Part shown: positions 56,393 to 60,265 of the stretch, piece by piece
How the letters are laid out: every line of letters starts with the position of its first letter
Position numbering within the stretch: position 1 is the stretch's first letter
NCBI GenBank assembly: GCA_900110635.1
Contig: FOEK01000007.1
Location: 62,001 to 126,000, forward strand
Direction: 5' to 3'
DNA length: 64,000 nt
From: Lachnospiraceae bacterium NE2001
Lineage (GTDB): Bacteria; Bacillota; Clostridia; Lachnospirales; Lachnospiraceae
Notes under the pieces: model-generated
Told to the model about the DNA's origin: nothing
The model's database searches: none
What the model saw: the letters and a program-made list of their open reading frames with translations, nothing else
Program-made: the position numbers and the translations under genes

Positions 56393-57337
56393 TTAGATGA
56401 TGTAAAACCAGTTTTCATCGTCAGCCTGCTTGGTAAATGCATCGCCGTCAAACTTTAACTCCTGGTTTGCAACGTGAACCTTGGTGTGTGGTGGTACTGA
56501 CTTGGTGAGGAACACGTTACCTCCGATAACTGAACCCTCGCCGATAACTGTATCGCCGCCCAGGATTGATGCTCCTGAATAGATGGTCACGTTATCCTCA
56601 ATGGTAGGATGTCTCTTCTTATCTATGAGCCCTCTTCCACCACGGGTGGAAAGTGCGCCCAGAGTAACACCCTGGTATATCTTAACTTTTTCACCTATAA
56701 CTGTAGTCTCACCTACAACTACTCCAGTACCGTGATCGATGAAGAAATATTTGCCGATGGTAGCACCCGGGTTGATATCTATACCTGTCTTGCTGTGAGC
56801 AATCTCTGTCATAACTCGAGGAAGCATCGGAATTCCCAGCTGATACAGCACGTGTGCATAGCGCTGAACTGATATAGCAAAAAGTCCTGGATAGGCGATG
56901 ATGATTGCATCCTTCGACTCCGCTGCCGGGTCGCCCACAAAGAGAGCCTCGATATCCGTATCCAGATATTCTCTTATCTCTGGAATCTTTTTCATAAACT
57001 GTACCGTGTAATCCTCGGCAATCAGTCTTATCTCTTCCTCAGACTTACCTATCAGTCTTTTATCAAAATGTAATGCAAGAGATATCTGCTTATTAAGATT
57101 ATAGGCCACATCCTCAGTCATTGAAGCAATGGTGGTGCTGAGATTATATATCCTGTAAGTCCTGTCCACATAGTAGCCCGCATAAACTATATGATTCAGC
57201 TTATATATTATCTCCTTTACCGAGTCACGCGCCGGCTGACCAAAGATGTCCTGCTTATCAATAGGACGTCCCTTCTCATAGTCAGCAACTATGTCAGAAA
57301 TAATCTCCGATATATTGTCACATATTAATTTTCCCAT
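56393..57337 (-). CDS. cysE: Serine O-acetyltransferase
   Basis: 314 residues, of the longer EpsC/SAT type. Converts serine and acetyl-CoA to O-acetylserine for cysteine synthesis. Helical N-terminal half, then a left-handed beta helix (about 180-290) with IDHGTGVVVGETTVIG and YQGVTLGALSTRGG, which hold the catalytic His and the acetyl-CoA site. A C-terminal tail (KQADDENWFYII) ends in isoleucine, the typical end for docking into the cysteine synthase CysK. ATG 57337 behind GAGG. Confidence 0.95.
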   Translation of the reverse strand: MGKLICDNISEIISDIVADYEKGRPIDKQDIFGQPARDSVKEIIYKLNHIVYAGYYVDRTYRIYNLSTTIASMTEDVAYNLNKQISLALHFDKRLIGKSEEEIRLIAEDYTVQFMKKIPEIREYLDTDIEALFVGDPAAESKDAIIIAYPGLFAISVQRYAHVLYQLGIPMLPRVMTEIAHSKTGIDINPGATIGKYFFIDHGTGVVVGETTVIGEKVKIYQGVTLGALSTRGGRGLIDKKRHPTIEDNVTIYSGASILGGDTVIGEGSVIGGNVFLTKSVPPHTKVHVANQELKFDGDAFTKQADDENWFYII

Positions 57338-57426: not shown

Positions 57427-58266
57427 CTAGACATATTTTCTAAGTGTATCCACAAGCTCTGGAATTGTAGCCTCAAAGTCAACGCCATACCAAGGCTTAG
57501 CAGGATTCTCAAGAGTAACCTCTATTGTCTTTGCAGTATAATCAGCAGCAATCTTAAATGCATCATTCAGGCTGAGACCTCTTGTGATAGCACCAACAGA
57601 TACGCTGGCGAAGATATCGCCTGTACCGTGGAAAGCAGCGTCAATGCGGTCATTTTCATATACAATCTTCTCACCTGTTACTGTATCGAGTCCGTATACA
57701 CCTGTCTTGCCTTCGCCAAATGCTATGCCAGTCAGAACCACCTTCTTAGCACCAAGCTTAGCCAGCTTGCCAAGCAGTTCCTCGATGTAATCCTTATCGT
57801 AGTCCTCTTTATATTCTGTATCAGTCATAAAGCAAGCCTCAGTAAGATTTGGCACTATTATATCAGCCTTACCGCAAAGGCCAGCATTTAACTTTGCGTA
57901 CTCCATATCAAATGCAGGATACAGCTTTCCATTATCAGCCATAACTGGATCTATAAAGATCAGTGTGTCTTCTCCACCGAACTCGTCAAATATCTTCTTT
58001 GCAATCTCTATCTCTTCTGCTGAACCAAGATAACCAGTATAAATAGCATCAAACTTTACGTCCTGGCTCTTCCAGTGGTCAGTGATTGGGATCAGCTGAT
58101 CTGTCAGGTCCTTAACTGTGAAGTTAGGGAACATTGTGTGGGTTGAAAGAACTGCTGTTGGCAGAATGGTTGTCTCAACGCCCATTGCTGATATTATAGG
58201 GAGTGCAACGGTGAGTGAGCATTTGCCGAGGCAGGAAATGTCCTGGATTGTAAGTATTCTCTTCAT
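57427..58266 (-). CDS. pdxK: Pyridoxal/pyridoxamine kinase
   Basis: 279-residue ribokinase-fold enzyme that phosphorylates B6 vitamers to PLP/PMP precursors. The N-terminus ILTIQDISCLGKCSLTVALP is the PdxK/PdxY signature, and VVLTGIAFGEG and AFHGTGDIFASVSVGA give the anion hole and catalytic Asp (the GTGD motif). No pdxST genes are present, so it is a salvage enzyme. It is divergent from a MocR/PdxR-type regulator over 505 bases that carry three 46-base inverted repeats; this makes it the clear target of that regulator. ATG 58266 behind GGAGG. Confidence 0.93.
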   Translation of the reverse strand: MKRILTIQDISCLGKCSLTVALPIISAMGVETTILPTAVLSTHTMFPNFTVKDLTDQLIPITDHWKSQDVKFDAIYTGYLGSAEEIEIAKKIFDEFGGEDTLIFIDPVMADNGKLYPAFDMEYAKLNAGLCGKADIIVPNLTEACFMTDTEYKEDYDKDYIEELLGKLAKLGAKKVVLTGIAFGEGKTGVYGLDTVTGEKIVYENDRIDAAFHGTGDIFASVSVGAITRGLSLNDAFKIAADYTAKTIEVTLENPAKPWYGVDFEATIPELVDTLRKYV

Positions 58267-58329: not shown

Positions 58330-58335
58330 ATTATA
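58330..58335 (-). promoter_or_regulatory. -10 box of the pdxK promoter
   Basis: Minus strand TATAAT (58330-58335) with no good -35 box at 16-18 bases. Inverted repeat 1 begins seven bases upstream, where an activator could stand in for the -35 contact. Confidence 0.55.
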
Positions 58336-58341
58336 GCGTCA

Positions 58342-58389
58342 TCTGGTCCTTTGAAAATATCCAATTTTAGAAAAATCGAAGGGACCAGA
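58342..58389. promoter_or_regulatory. PdxR-type inverted repeat 1
   Basis: TCTGGTCC (58342-58349) and GGACCAGA (58382-58389). From CTGG to CCAG it spans 46 bases (58343-58388), as do the other two. Next to the pdxK -10 box. Confidence 0.75.
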
Positions 58390-58463
58390 TTGAAGAGTTA
58401 GAGCTGATCATAGTTGACAAAAGGATACGGTTGAGGAATGAATCTCTGGGAATTATTTGAAAT

Positions 58464-58493
58464 TTGACACATAACTACTCAAAAATATATAAT
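58464..58493 (+). promoter_or_regulatory. Promoter of pdxR
   Basis: TTGACA (58464-58469), 18-base spacer, TATAAT (58488-58493): both hexamers are consensus. Predicted start near 58500, inside repeat 2. Gives a leader of about 270 bases before the ATG at 58772. Confidence 0.75.
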
Positions 58494-58497
58494 ATGC

Positions 58498-58543
58498 CTG
58501 GTCCCTTCAATTTCCTCAATTTTGAAGAATTTGAAGGGACCAG
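58498..58543. promoter_or_regulatory. PdxR-type inverted repeat 2
   Basis: CTGGTCCCTTCAA (58498-58510) and TTGAAGGGACCAG (58531-58543), a perfect 13-base pair spanning 46 bases. It overlaps the predicted pdxR transcription start, so binding would repress or time pdxR. Confidence 0.8.
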
Positions 58544-58559
58544 ATGAAATATTTTATAC

Positions 58560-58605
58560 CTGGTACCCTCAATTTGTTGTTTTTTTCCTATTTCAAAGGG
58601 ACCAG
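58560..58605. promoter_or_regulatory. PdxR-type inverted repeat 3
   Basis: CTGGTACCCTC (58560-58570) and AAAGGGACCAG (58595-58605), again 46 bases end to end, centred 62 bases from repeat 2. Less perfect than repeat 2. Confidence 0.7.
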
Positions 58606-58771
58606 AGAATTTGATATGGTCGCGCAAGTCAGTTAACATAATCTAGACAATTATAATGCAATTATTGATATTGAATTTTCTATAACAGTAGTTTCAAGTA
58701 TGGTTTACATAACAAGCAATGATGACAATTAGGATGTTTACTAATTAAATAAGTTCAAGGAGAAAAAGACC

Positions 58772-60265
58772 ATGTTGTCATATACATTTACTGAAGACAA
58801 AGAGTTTCCGCTCTATGAGCAGCTCTATCAGCGGATTAAGGAGGATATTATCGAGCGACGTCTGGAGCCGCACTCTCCCCTTCCATCAAAAAGAAGTCTG
58901 GCGAAGCATTTGTCCATTAGTCTTACTACCGTGGAGAATGCGTACAACCAGCTGGTGTCCGAGGGATACGTGTACCCTATCTATAAGAAGGGGTACTACG
59001 TCAGCAATGTGCAGAACGTTCCGATGAACACTGTAAGGGACGATTATCTTCCGGAGCAGCTTAGAGTCGACAAGGACAAGAACGGCCACAGCAGGCTTTA
59101 TATCGGGGATAAGACCTATACTGAAATGTATATGGGCACGGACAACCGGACGGATTATTTTGCCGACTTCTCGTCAAATGCAAGCGATCCAGCTACATTT
59201 CCCTTTTCTACCTGGGCAAAGCTGAACAGAGAGATACTATCAACGGAGCACGTAAAGCTGATGACCAATTCGCCGTCCAACGGAATGGTAGAGCTTCGCT
59301 ATGCCATTGCTGAGTATCTTCACCAGTTCCGCGGTATCGACGTCTTTCCTGACAACATCGTTATCGGCGCAGGTACAGAGACGCTCTACTCTATTCTGGT
59401 GCAACTCCTGGGCTTCGACAAGGTATATGGCGTGGAGGATCCTGGGTACGAGAAAATATCCCAGATGCTGGAATCCAGCAACATAAAAACCGCGCGTATT
59501 CCTCTCGACGAATACGGGGTGATGCCGCGCGAGCTGATGAAGCATAACGTCAACGTGATCCACACCACTCCATCTCATCATTTTCCAACAGGGATAACTA
59601 TGCCTATCAGCAGACGCCACGAGCTGCTCAAATGGGCAAATGCCGACGACACAACCTACGATGACGAGGCAAACCGTTTCATTATGTCTGTTGACCGTGA
59701 CGACAAGTACATCATCGAGGACGACTACGACAGCGAGTTCCGCCTCAGCGGGCGCCCTATTCCGTCGCTCACCAGCATCGATAACAGTGAGAAGGTCATC
59801 TATATGAACACCTTCACCAAGAGCCTGGCGTCCACCATTCGTATCAGCTATATGATACTGCCCGACCACCTTCGGGATAGGTACTACGAAAAGCTGTCAT
59901 TTTACTCCTGCCCTGTATCCACATTTGAGCAAATGACACTTACACGTTTCATCAGCGAGGGCTACTACGAGAAGCACATCAACCGTATGCGGACCGCCTC
60001 CAGGAAGAAGCGAGACCTGCTCCTTAAAAGCATAAAATCCAGCCCGATCGCCGCTTTCTCAGAGATAAGCGAGGAACAGTCTGGATTACATTTTATATTA
60101 AAAATAAGTCTGGGTATTCCAGATACCACCTTTGTTTCGAGGTGTCTGGAAAATGGCATCAATATCTCACCGATATCGAAGCACAGCTTTATGATCAACT
60201 ACTCCTCGGTGCCGCTGGACCGGATTGAGGAGGCTGTAAGAAGGATGGCGGAATGTGCGCTGTAA
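58772..60265 (+). CDS. pdxR: MocR/PdxR-family transcriptional regulator
   Basis: 497 residues. N-terminal GntR-type winged helix (about 9-78, LPSKRSLAKHLSISLTTVE) joined by a linker to a class I aminotransferase-like domain (about 125-495). The PLP lysine is Lys350 in NTFTKSLAST, and EDDYDSEF (316-323) gives the pyridine-binding Asp and Tyr. In such regulators PLP bound to this domain controls DNA binding. The divergent gene is a pyridoxamine kinase, so PdxR is the most likely identity, with PLP-sensitive control of salvage. Aminobutyrate (GabR) or other MocR subgroups are less likely given the context. Runs to one base before the next convergent gene. Confidence 0.92.
   Translation: MLSYTFTEDKEFPLYEQLYQRIKEDIIERRLEPHSPLPSKRSLAKHLSISLTTVENAYNQLVSEGYVYPIYKKGYYVSNVQNVPMNTVRDDYLPEQLRVDKDKNGHSRLYIGDKTYTEMYMGTDNRTDYFADFSSNASDPATFPFSTWAKLNREILSTEHVKLMTNSPSNGMVELRYAIAEYLHQFRGIDVFPDNIVIGAGTETLYSILVQLLGFDKVYGVEDPGYEKISQMLESSNIKTARIPLDEYGVMPRELMKHNVNVIHTTPSHHFPTGITMPISRRHELLKWANADDTTYDDEANRFIMSVDRDDKYIIEDDYDSEFRLSGRPIPSLTSIDNSEKVIYMNTFTKSLASTIRISYMILPDHLRDRYYEKLSFYSCPVSTFEQMTLTRFISEGYYEKHINRMRTASRKKRDLLLKSIKSSPIAAFSEISEEQSGLHFILKISLGIPDTTFVSRCLENGINISPISKHSFMINYSSVPLDRIEEAVRRMAECAL

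Follow-up and report, generated by a model that had tools for sequence, protein, structure and literature searches.

Three equal inverted repeats in one divergent gap

Why should a single intergenic gap carry the same long inverted repeat three times, and which protein would read it? The question is raised by a 64,000-nucleotide stretch of the genome of Lachnospiraceae bacterium NE2001 (the window, to which plain coordinates refer), where pdxK on the minus strand and pdxR on the plus strand diverge from a gap that does measure the 505 bp first given for it and that contains the repeats w1, w2 and w3. The features of the locus are as follows (site classes and covariance model R1 are described below; w1, w2 and w3 are all in the R1 training set).

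57427–58266, minus strand: pdxK, pyridoxamine/pyridoxal kinase, the divergent target gene (NCBIfam NF005491, pyridoxamine kinase, 292 bits against a cut-off of 231)
58330–58335, minus strand: predicted pdxK -10 box, TATAAT, 7 nt from the edge of w1
58343–58388, no strand assigned: w1, class A 46-bp predicted PdxR operator of the presumed ancestral kind, putative pdxK activator site (half-sites CTGGTCC/GGGACCAG; internal box 10/10; R1 E = 9.7e-11)
58354–58363, plus strand: internal third box, AAAATATCCA, the mark of class A operators
58464–58469, plus strand: predicted pdxR -35 box, TTGACA (promoter scan)
58488–58493, plus strand: predicted pdxR -10 box, TATAAT, ending 4 nt ahead of w2 (promoter scan)
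58498–58543, no strand assigned: w2, a 46-bp class B site across the predicted start of pdxR, putative operator for autorepression (R1 E = 1.8e-12)
58560–58605, no strand assigned: w3, a 46-bp class B site within the leader of pdxR (R1 E: plus strand 4.8e-11, minus strand 0.006)
58772–60265, plus strand: pdxR, MocR-type regulator with a GntR winged helix-turn-helix and an aminotransferase-like domain (NCBIfam NF052282, PLP_TF_PdxR, 514 bits against a cut-off of 320)

Measured from CTG to CAG, each repeat is exactly 46 bp long, as the original prediction had it, and its claim of three equal inverted repeats is borne out by the alignment of the copies in register (58332–58389, 58487–58544 and 58549–58606, with start-to-start distances of 155 and 62), by the complementarity of the outer 11 bp (9/11 in w1, 11/11 in w2 and 8/11 in w3) and by a Markov control. 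In that control, which counted sets of at least two equal-length inverted repeats with similar arms, the left one containing 5 or more G/C, none of 2000 order-1 resamplings of the gap reached two qualifying repeats, against three in the real gap; a shuffle control run without the G+C filter was weaker, giving a family of two in 33/150 cases and a family of three in 2/150, from AT-rich matches. The weaker site is w3, by its outer pairs, and it also has the lowest minus-strand R1 score among the 12 training copies.

The regulator beside these repeats carries GntR (Pfam PF00392) and Aminotran_1_2 (PF00155) domains in one protein and matches the curated PdxR model listed above. The kinase gene lies opposite pdxR here and in the relatives G005, G008, G015, G016, G044, G047 and G057, and a scripted scan of the G007 and G045 loci found no pdxK divergent from pdxR there.

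A predicted 46-bp operator at related pdxR loci

The half-site and its 46-base spacing, which the original prediction suggested seeking in related pdxR gaps, are conserved there. For the pdxR loci of the best 80 of 587 relatives, the terminal six bases on either side were scored against CTGACC/GGTCAG within 300 bp before pdxR at lengths of 36 to 59, and at least 10 of the 12 end bases match at 46 bp in 26/80 loci, as against no more than 5/80 at any other length, the end letters having been picked after inspection of the sites and the length comparison made afterwards. With at least 11 of 12 matching, the figures are 16/80 loci at 46 bp and at most one at other lengths. The remaining 54 of these best 80 fall below the threshold, and one locus (L047) counts as a miss with only 28 nt available before pdxR. 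Among the 26, L040 is the class B site of G044, which also figures in the genus set described below, so the two sets share one member. Two to four boxes at a spacing that is constant within an orthologous group are the hallmark of MocR operators, and this is what the 46-bp length in 26 of the best 80 loci provides.

The placement of these 26 operators, all from the best 80 of 587 relatives, is similarly regular. Their starts lie 55–69 bp before pdxR in 24 of the 26, a divergent TATAAT stands exactly 7 nt from the operator in 16 (with at least a 5/6 match in 21; this counts position only, whichever gene lies divergent), and toward pdxR a TATAAT ends 5 nt before the operator, again in 16; by eye, many of them have a -35 resembling TTGACA or TTTACA on that side. 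The typical stretch is ATTATAAT, a single -10 region usable both ways. On the simplest reading, the operator would replace the -35 of the divergent gene and cover the pdxR start, which fits one protein activating its target and repressing its own gene.

A like geometry is found in the window, where each repeat sits as originally described relative to the predicted promoters. The only pdxK -35 is a poor one (TTTTCA, 4/6) located within w1, so that w1 occupies the -35 position. The predicted pdxR promoter (58464–58493) is a full consensus (TTGACA, an 18-nt spacer and TATAAT, 12/12; at a looser scan threshold there were 5 promoter-like sites, against 3.1 (sd 1.8) in shuffles), and since its -10 ends 4 nt before w2, compared with 5 nt in most of the wider operators, transcription is expected to start within w2; w3 then falls in the pdxR leader. 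The PdxR match, the invariant 46-bp length and the promoter placement together support the proposal that the repeats are operators of the MocR-type regulator, and PdxR, the vitamin-B6 sensor, very probably binds all three.

Site numbers and site classes across the genus

Covariance models R1, R2 and R3, which were built from sites that they later find, were used in searches of the own genome, of 41 genomes and of 61 genus genomes (both sets including the own). The own genome has 13 places, namely w1, w2, w3 and 10 further copies, and 10 of the 61 genus genomes have a match at E ≤ 0.001, an odd match in G056 being one of these. Our working set holds 45 sites: 13 from the own genome, 10 from G067, nine from G044, five from G008, three from G005 and one each from G007, G015, G043, G047 and G058. 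Under a 46-position model that allows gaps, 44/45 are 46 bp long and one is 45 bp; this last site (G044, contig C134) is used in the TATAAT flank count and omitted from the class comparison, which covers 44 sites. Left uncounted were the G056 match (54 nt), a weak match in G035, a partial match in own contig C42 (E 7.4), other weak matches, and five chance matches with perfect ends that lack the remainder of the half-site (one each in C18, C25 and C30, two in C41). The operators observed in G016 and G057 stand outside the set, and one G067 site (G067_C261) overlaps an ORF only at its end. G067, which has 10 sites, yielded no close PdxR in an assembly that is 69% complete.

Within the pdxK–pdxR gap the number of sites varies: one in G005, G008, G015, G016, G047 and G057 (gaps of 127–252 bp), two in G044 (335 bp) and three in the own genome (505 bp), while in G007 a degenerate pdxR-side copy is all that can be read by eye and the scripted scan scored none. 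This series suggests that the switch has been split, with w1 serving pdxK and w2 lying over the pdxR start. The original prediction went further and placed all three sites on one face of the helix, with DNA looping between pdxK and pdxR. Three sites do share one gap, and the 62-bp distance is close to whole turns (5.90 at 10.5 bp per turn), but 155 bp corresponds to 14.76 turns, so that the common face holds only roughly; moreover, the G044 pair is 170 bp apart (16.19 turns), a pair in the own hypC–hypD gap is 55 bp apart (5.24 turns), and the six relatives with a single site retain the same promoter geometry. Looping by three phased operators is thus unsupported by these spacings and we consider it improbable.

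The sites of the genus fall into two classes. In the 26 wider operators (from the best 80 of 587 relatives) an internal box, AAAATANCCA, occupies positions 12–21, and among the 44 genus sites compared it scores at least 9/10 in 13/13 sites at pdxK, its paralogue or cytX-like genes (class A) and at most 8/10 in the 31/31 remaining sites (class B), without overlap, a separation that is descriptive because inspection of the sites preceded the definition of the box. With box scores of 10 for w1 and 7 for both w2 and w3, this measure assigns w1 to the ancestral kind and puts w2 and w3, together with the G044 site on the pdxR side, in the scattered kind described below. Judged in this way, two of the three sites in the gap belong to a lineage-specific class that multiplied.

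The flanks of the sites differ between the classes as well. In 76 flanks of 38 intergenic genus sites, offsets 7–8 hold 10 of the 13 exact TATAATs found at offsets 0–29; all 10 adjoin pdxK or cytX-like genes, and the other three such sites score 5/6 there. Class B intergenic sites have an exact TATAAT at 7–8 nt in 0/25 cases and a 5/6 match in 3/25 (w2, the G044 C96 site and the G044 pdxR-side site), and most class B copies are therefore unlike regulon promoters. Placement at the promoters of target and regulator, as in MocR operators, is accordingly found for w1 and w2 and is not a rule for the other class B copies.

Among the class A sites are those of a cytX-like NCS1 transporter gene, with the TATAAT 7–8 nt away, in G005, G007, G008, G043, G044 and G067 (loci L231, L232, L234, L257, L263 and L266). 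The G005 protein matches NCBIfam thia_cytX, and the name was checked on that protein only, the others being named by resemblance. In the own genome the only homologue found is 50% identical and lies downstream of a TPP riboswitch, and is thus probably a thiamine-type transporter. Its operator makes the transporter of the six genus members a candidate for vitamin B6 transport, separate from the CytX that follows the TPP riboswitch in the own genome.

Scattered class B copies and the DNA that comes with them

The view from a single window was correct for the three sites in the gap, but it missed that the same repeat occurs at 10 more places in the genome and that w2 and w3 resemble this scattered class. 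The 10 further copies comprise four places in contig C19, two in the hypC–hypD gap, one between two ABC-transporter ATPase genes, and one each within the coding genes hydF, galT and a transketolase-like gene, so that 3/13 places are coding. None of the nameable genes next to or holding the scattered copies in the own genome has a known role in vitamin B6 metabolism. The gene names HypC and HydE are ones that we presume, and HypC had no NCBIfam match at 1e-20. In G008, one copy lies within a nitrogenase-like gene and one ahead of bioB, and the galT copy stands at the same position in the own genome, G005 and G044.

Four of these loci (hypC–hypD, hydF, the G008 nitrogenase-like gene and galT) were compared with relatives, the own copies in C19, C40 and the transketolase-like gene being left out, and extra DNA accompanies the copies at all four. 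The hypC–hypD gap is 256 bp in the own genome against 51 bp in G005 and 34 bp in G008, an excess of about 205 bp between genes whose products are 99% (HypC) and 95% (HypD) identical to those of G005. In hydF the linker exceeds that of G005 by 57 nt, the G008 nitrogenase-like linker is longer by 22 and 25 residues than those of G005 and the own genome, and the galT linkers of the own genome and G005 are the longest among 21 aligned genomes, with that of G044 also extended. At hypC–hypD and hydF the extra DNA exceeds 46 bp and its ends are unclear, and no target duplication was seen in the extra DNA at the compared loci. A clean excision in hydF was considered and rejected, as the alignment with G005 has a longer, poorly conserved linker and no exact empty site.

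Sets of copies within one genome share flanks, and these flanks differ between genomes; the longer shared flanks around the 46-bp core occur only in sets of copies within single genomes. A search of 396 other family genomes, mostly one per genus and with 15 candidates scored per genome, turned up no class B match, a zero that is not exact since the same search finds just 10/13 of the own places. A literature search found no report of the scattered class, and such a search cannot exclude one.

Copies near unrelated genes and within coding linkers, the extra DNA, the flanks common within a genome and different between genomes, and the lack of class B matches in the rest of the family sample would all suit a rival reading in which w1 alone is an operator and the scattered copies are an ordinary short palindromic mobile repeat (MITE- or RPE-like), unrelated to PdxR, of which w2 and w3 are two copies that happened to land in the gap. 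We nevertheless think this unlikely, as w2 overlies the start at a consensus promoter, just as the wider operators do, and as both the 46-bp length and the kind of half-site equal those of the species' own pdxK/pdxR operator and differ with it between species.

Several smaller observations concern the surroundings of class B copies. The four copies in C19, a contig of 29 kb (L024, L025), have a common flank, CCTCTATA, and two of them also have a second short palindrome close by, GACAGGGGACGGTCCCCTGTC or one much like it. In G067, contig C164 carries four class B sites within 5 kb (L262:1733–6660), three of which have a further CTGACC-like half-site 24 nt on. The G044 pdxR-side site (L253:3419–3464) has AT-rich flanks in common with two scattered copies (L251, L252), as if all had come from one longer repeat.

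Half-sites and the possible specificity of PdxR

The half-site is mostly CTGACC in the other genus members and CTGGTCC in the own genome, at pdxK and in nearly all copies; other species also have CTGGCC as a variant, which makes the difference less than all-or-none. CTGGT is present on both sides in 12/13 own sites, w1 included, the exception being the right half of the galT copy (CTGGCC), and model R2, trained on both kinds of half-site, returned the same 13 own places and no more. That the scattered copies vary along with the pdxK operator argues, short of proof, that a single protein reads both. If the change ran from CTGACC to CTGGTCC, most copies could have multiplied after it. The galT copy, being common to three species, is probably older than the change on this comparison, and its left half-site has GGT in the own genome where G005 and G044 have GAC. 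We also considered galT as proof of selection on the half-sites (52/66 identical, against 43/72 in the interior, over three pairwise comparisons) and make no such claim because the independent cases are too few.

A residue of the recognition helix was examined as a possible cause of the difference and rejected: the own protein has AKHLSIS where G005 has AKQLSIS and G044 has AKQLNIS, yet G016 has AEHLSIS and CTGACA/CTGACC half-sites, so that the histidine alone cannot explain it. The cytX-like operator of G043 (L266:3371–3416) carries the half-sites CTGGTCT/AGACCAG, which seem to have departed from CTGACC independently; the top PdxR match found in G043 has only 41% identity.

It might also be supposed that the elements act as RNA hairpins in leaders and messages, as four of six folded copies scored better than all of 200 shuffles (w2, -27.4 kcal/mol, z -5.9; a C19 copy, -26.4, z -8.5; the hydF copy, -17.9, z -4.1; w1, -13.6, z -2.9). 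Inverted repeats, however, fold well whatever their role. The folds of w3 (z -1.6) and of the G008 operator (z 0.2) are unremarkable, w1 lies upstream of the predicted pdxK start, and half-site letters are kept within a species beyond what pairing requires, all of which make this reading very improbable. Rfam gave no match on L030, L024 and L253 and the TPP riboswitch alone on L238.

Relation to known operators and repeats

In Gram-positive bacteria, PdxR regulons include pdxST, pdxK and pdxU divergent from or under pdxR (Suvorova and Rodionov 2016, PMC5320631), and PdxR elsewhere activates its target and represses its own gene, with PLP as an anti-activator (PMC5320631, PMC11619246). The present locus is alike in having a MocR-type regulator divergent from a B6 gene and spaced, repeated boxes in the operator. 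The commonest motif type in that survey, two direct boxes plus one inverted, may be matched by class A, the box directions being our own reading. Compared with the regulons described there, this locus differs in having three sites where most relatives examined have one, in its two operator classes and in the copies outside B6 genes. The 46-bp operator may already be published among the clostridial motifs in the figure or supplements of that paper (PMC5320631).

The operator of Bacillus clausii PdxR contains both direct and inverted repeats, as class A here may; the apo form binds both and favours the direct, and the PLP-bound form favours the inverted (PMC5320631), two conformations of the protein having been described (PMC4944035). 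That PdxR controls pdxST, whereas here, on our own reading, a three-box class A and a pure inverted two-box class B stand in one genome. Because PLP-bound PdxR is reported to favour inverted repeats (PMC5320631), class B may, by analogy, suit the PLP-bound form.

The scattered copies also invite comparison with the Rickettsia palindromic elements (RPE), RUP, ERIC and Correia elements, which occur as multiple palindromic copies, RPE, ERIC and Correia also in frame within genes, and some of which carry the site of a host protein, such as IHF in Correia (PMC2229807). Thirteen own places with three inside genes resemble RPE-like elements in this respect. However, RPE, RUP and Correia are given as 105–155 bp (PMC2229807), more than twice the 46 bp found here. 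Further differences from these families, as far as they are described there, are the 13 copies, a core that corresponds to the predicted operator of a chromosomal metabolic regulator, and the fact that no target duplication has been established.

A proposed history of the switch

Taken as a whole, the patterns in the sequence are probably best explained by an ancestral PdxR operator that was split in this lineage, with w2 and w3 belonging to a repeat that itself derives from the operator, multiplied and can be read by PdxR. The ancestral state would be one 46-bp operator between divergent pdxR and pdxK, where bound PdxR would repress its own gene by covering the pdxR start and activate pdxK by substituting for its missing -35, the -10 being 7–8 nt from the operator edge. 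In the own lineage this compact switch would have been pulled apart, w1 retaining the pdxK side and the internal box, and w2 coming to lie on a separate consensus pdxR promoter where PdxR would shut off pdxR, with w3 as a further leader site that may add to the repression. PLP would relieve activation, as we infer from characterised PdxRs.

The two-box class, w2 and w3 included, would have multiplied in the own genome and in a few closely related species, arriving at new positions, coding linkers among them, along with extra DNA and keeping half-sites of the kind found in the species' own pdxK operator. For the scattered sites we favour PdxR binding with weak or local effects, which might for example block a passing polymerase or titrate PdxR. 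A bolder reading, which we hold only tentatively, is that the operator became a small multiplying element: class B copies would be inverted-repeat pads, read by PdxR possibly in its PLP-bound form, that spread into gaps and linkers, made the three-site switch, stayed readable as specificity shifted and now serve as roadblocks, or as a reservoir that titrates PdxR, in step with vitamin B6 status.

If PdxR does read the scattered class, this would be an example of regulator sites multiplying and tracking a change of specificity, coding genes included. The operator meanwhile offers a testable rule for clostridial PdxR, namely 46 bp with a TATAAT 7–8 nt away, and it is this rule that points to the cytX-like transporter of the six genus members.

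Other observations at the locus

Relative to the G008 protein, the own PdxR (58772–60265) is longer by 18 residues between WAN and YIIEDD of its aminotransferase-like domain. Finally, a serine O-acetyltransferase-like gene that scores below the curated NCBIfam cut-offs comes after pdxK (56393–57337), and a similar gene also follows pdxK in G005, G008 and G015.
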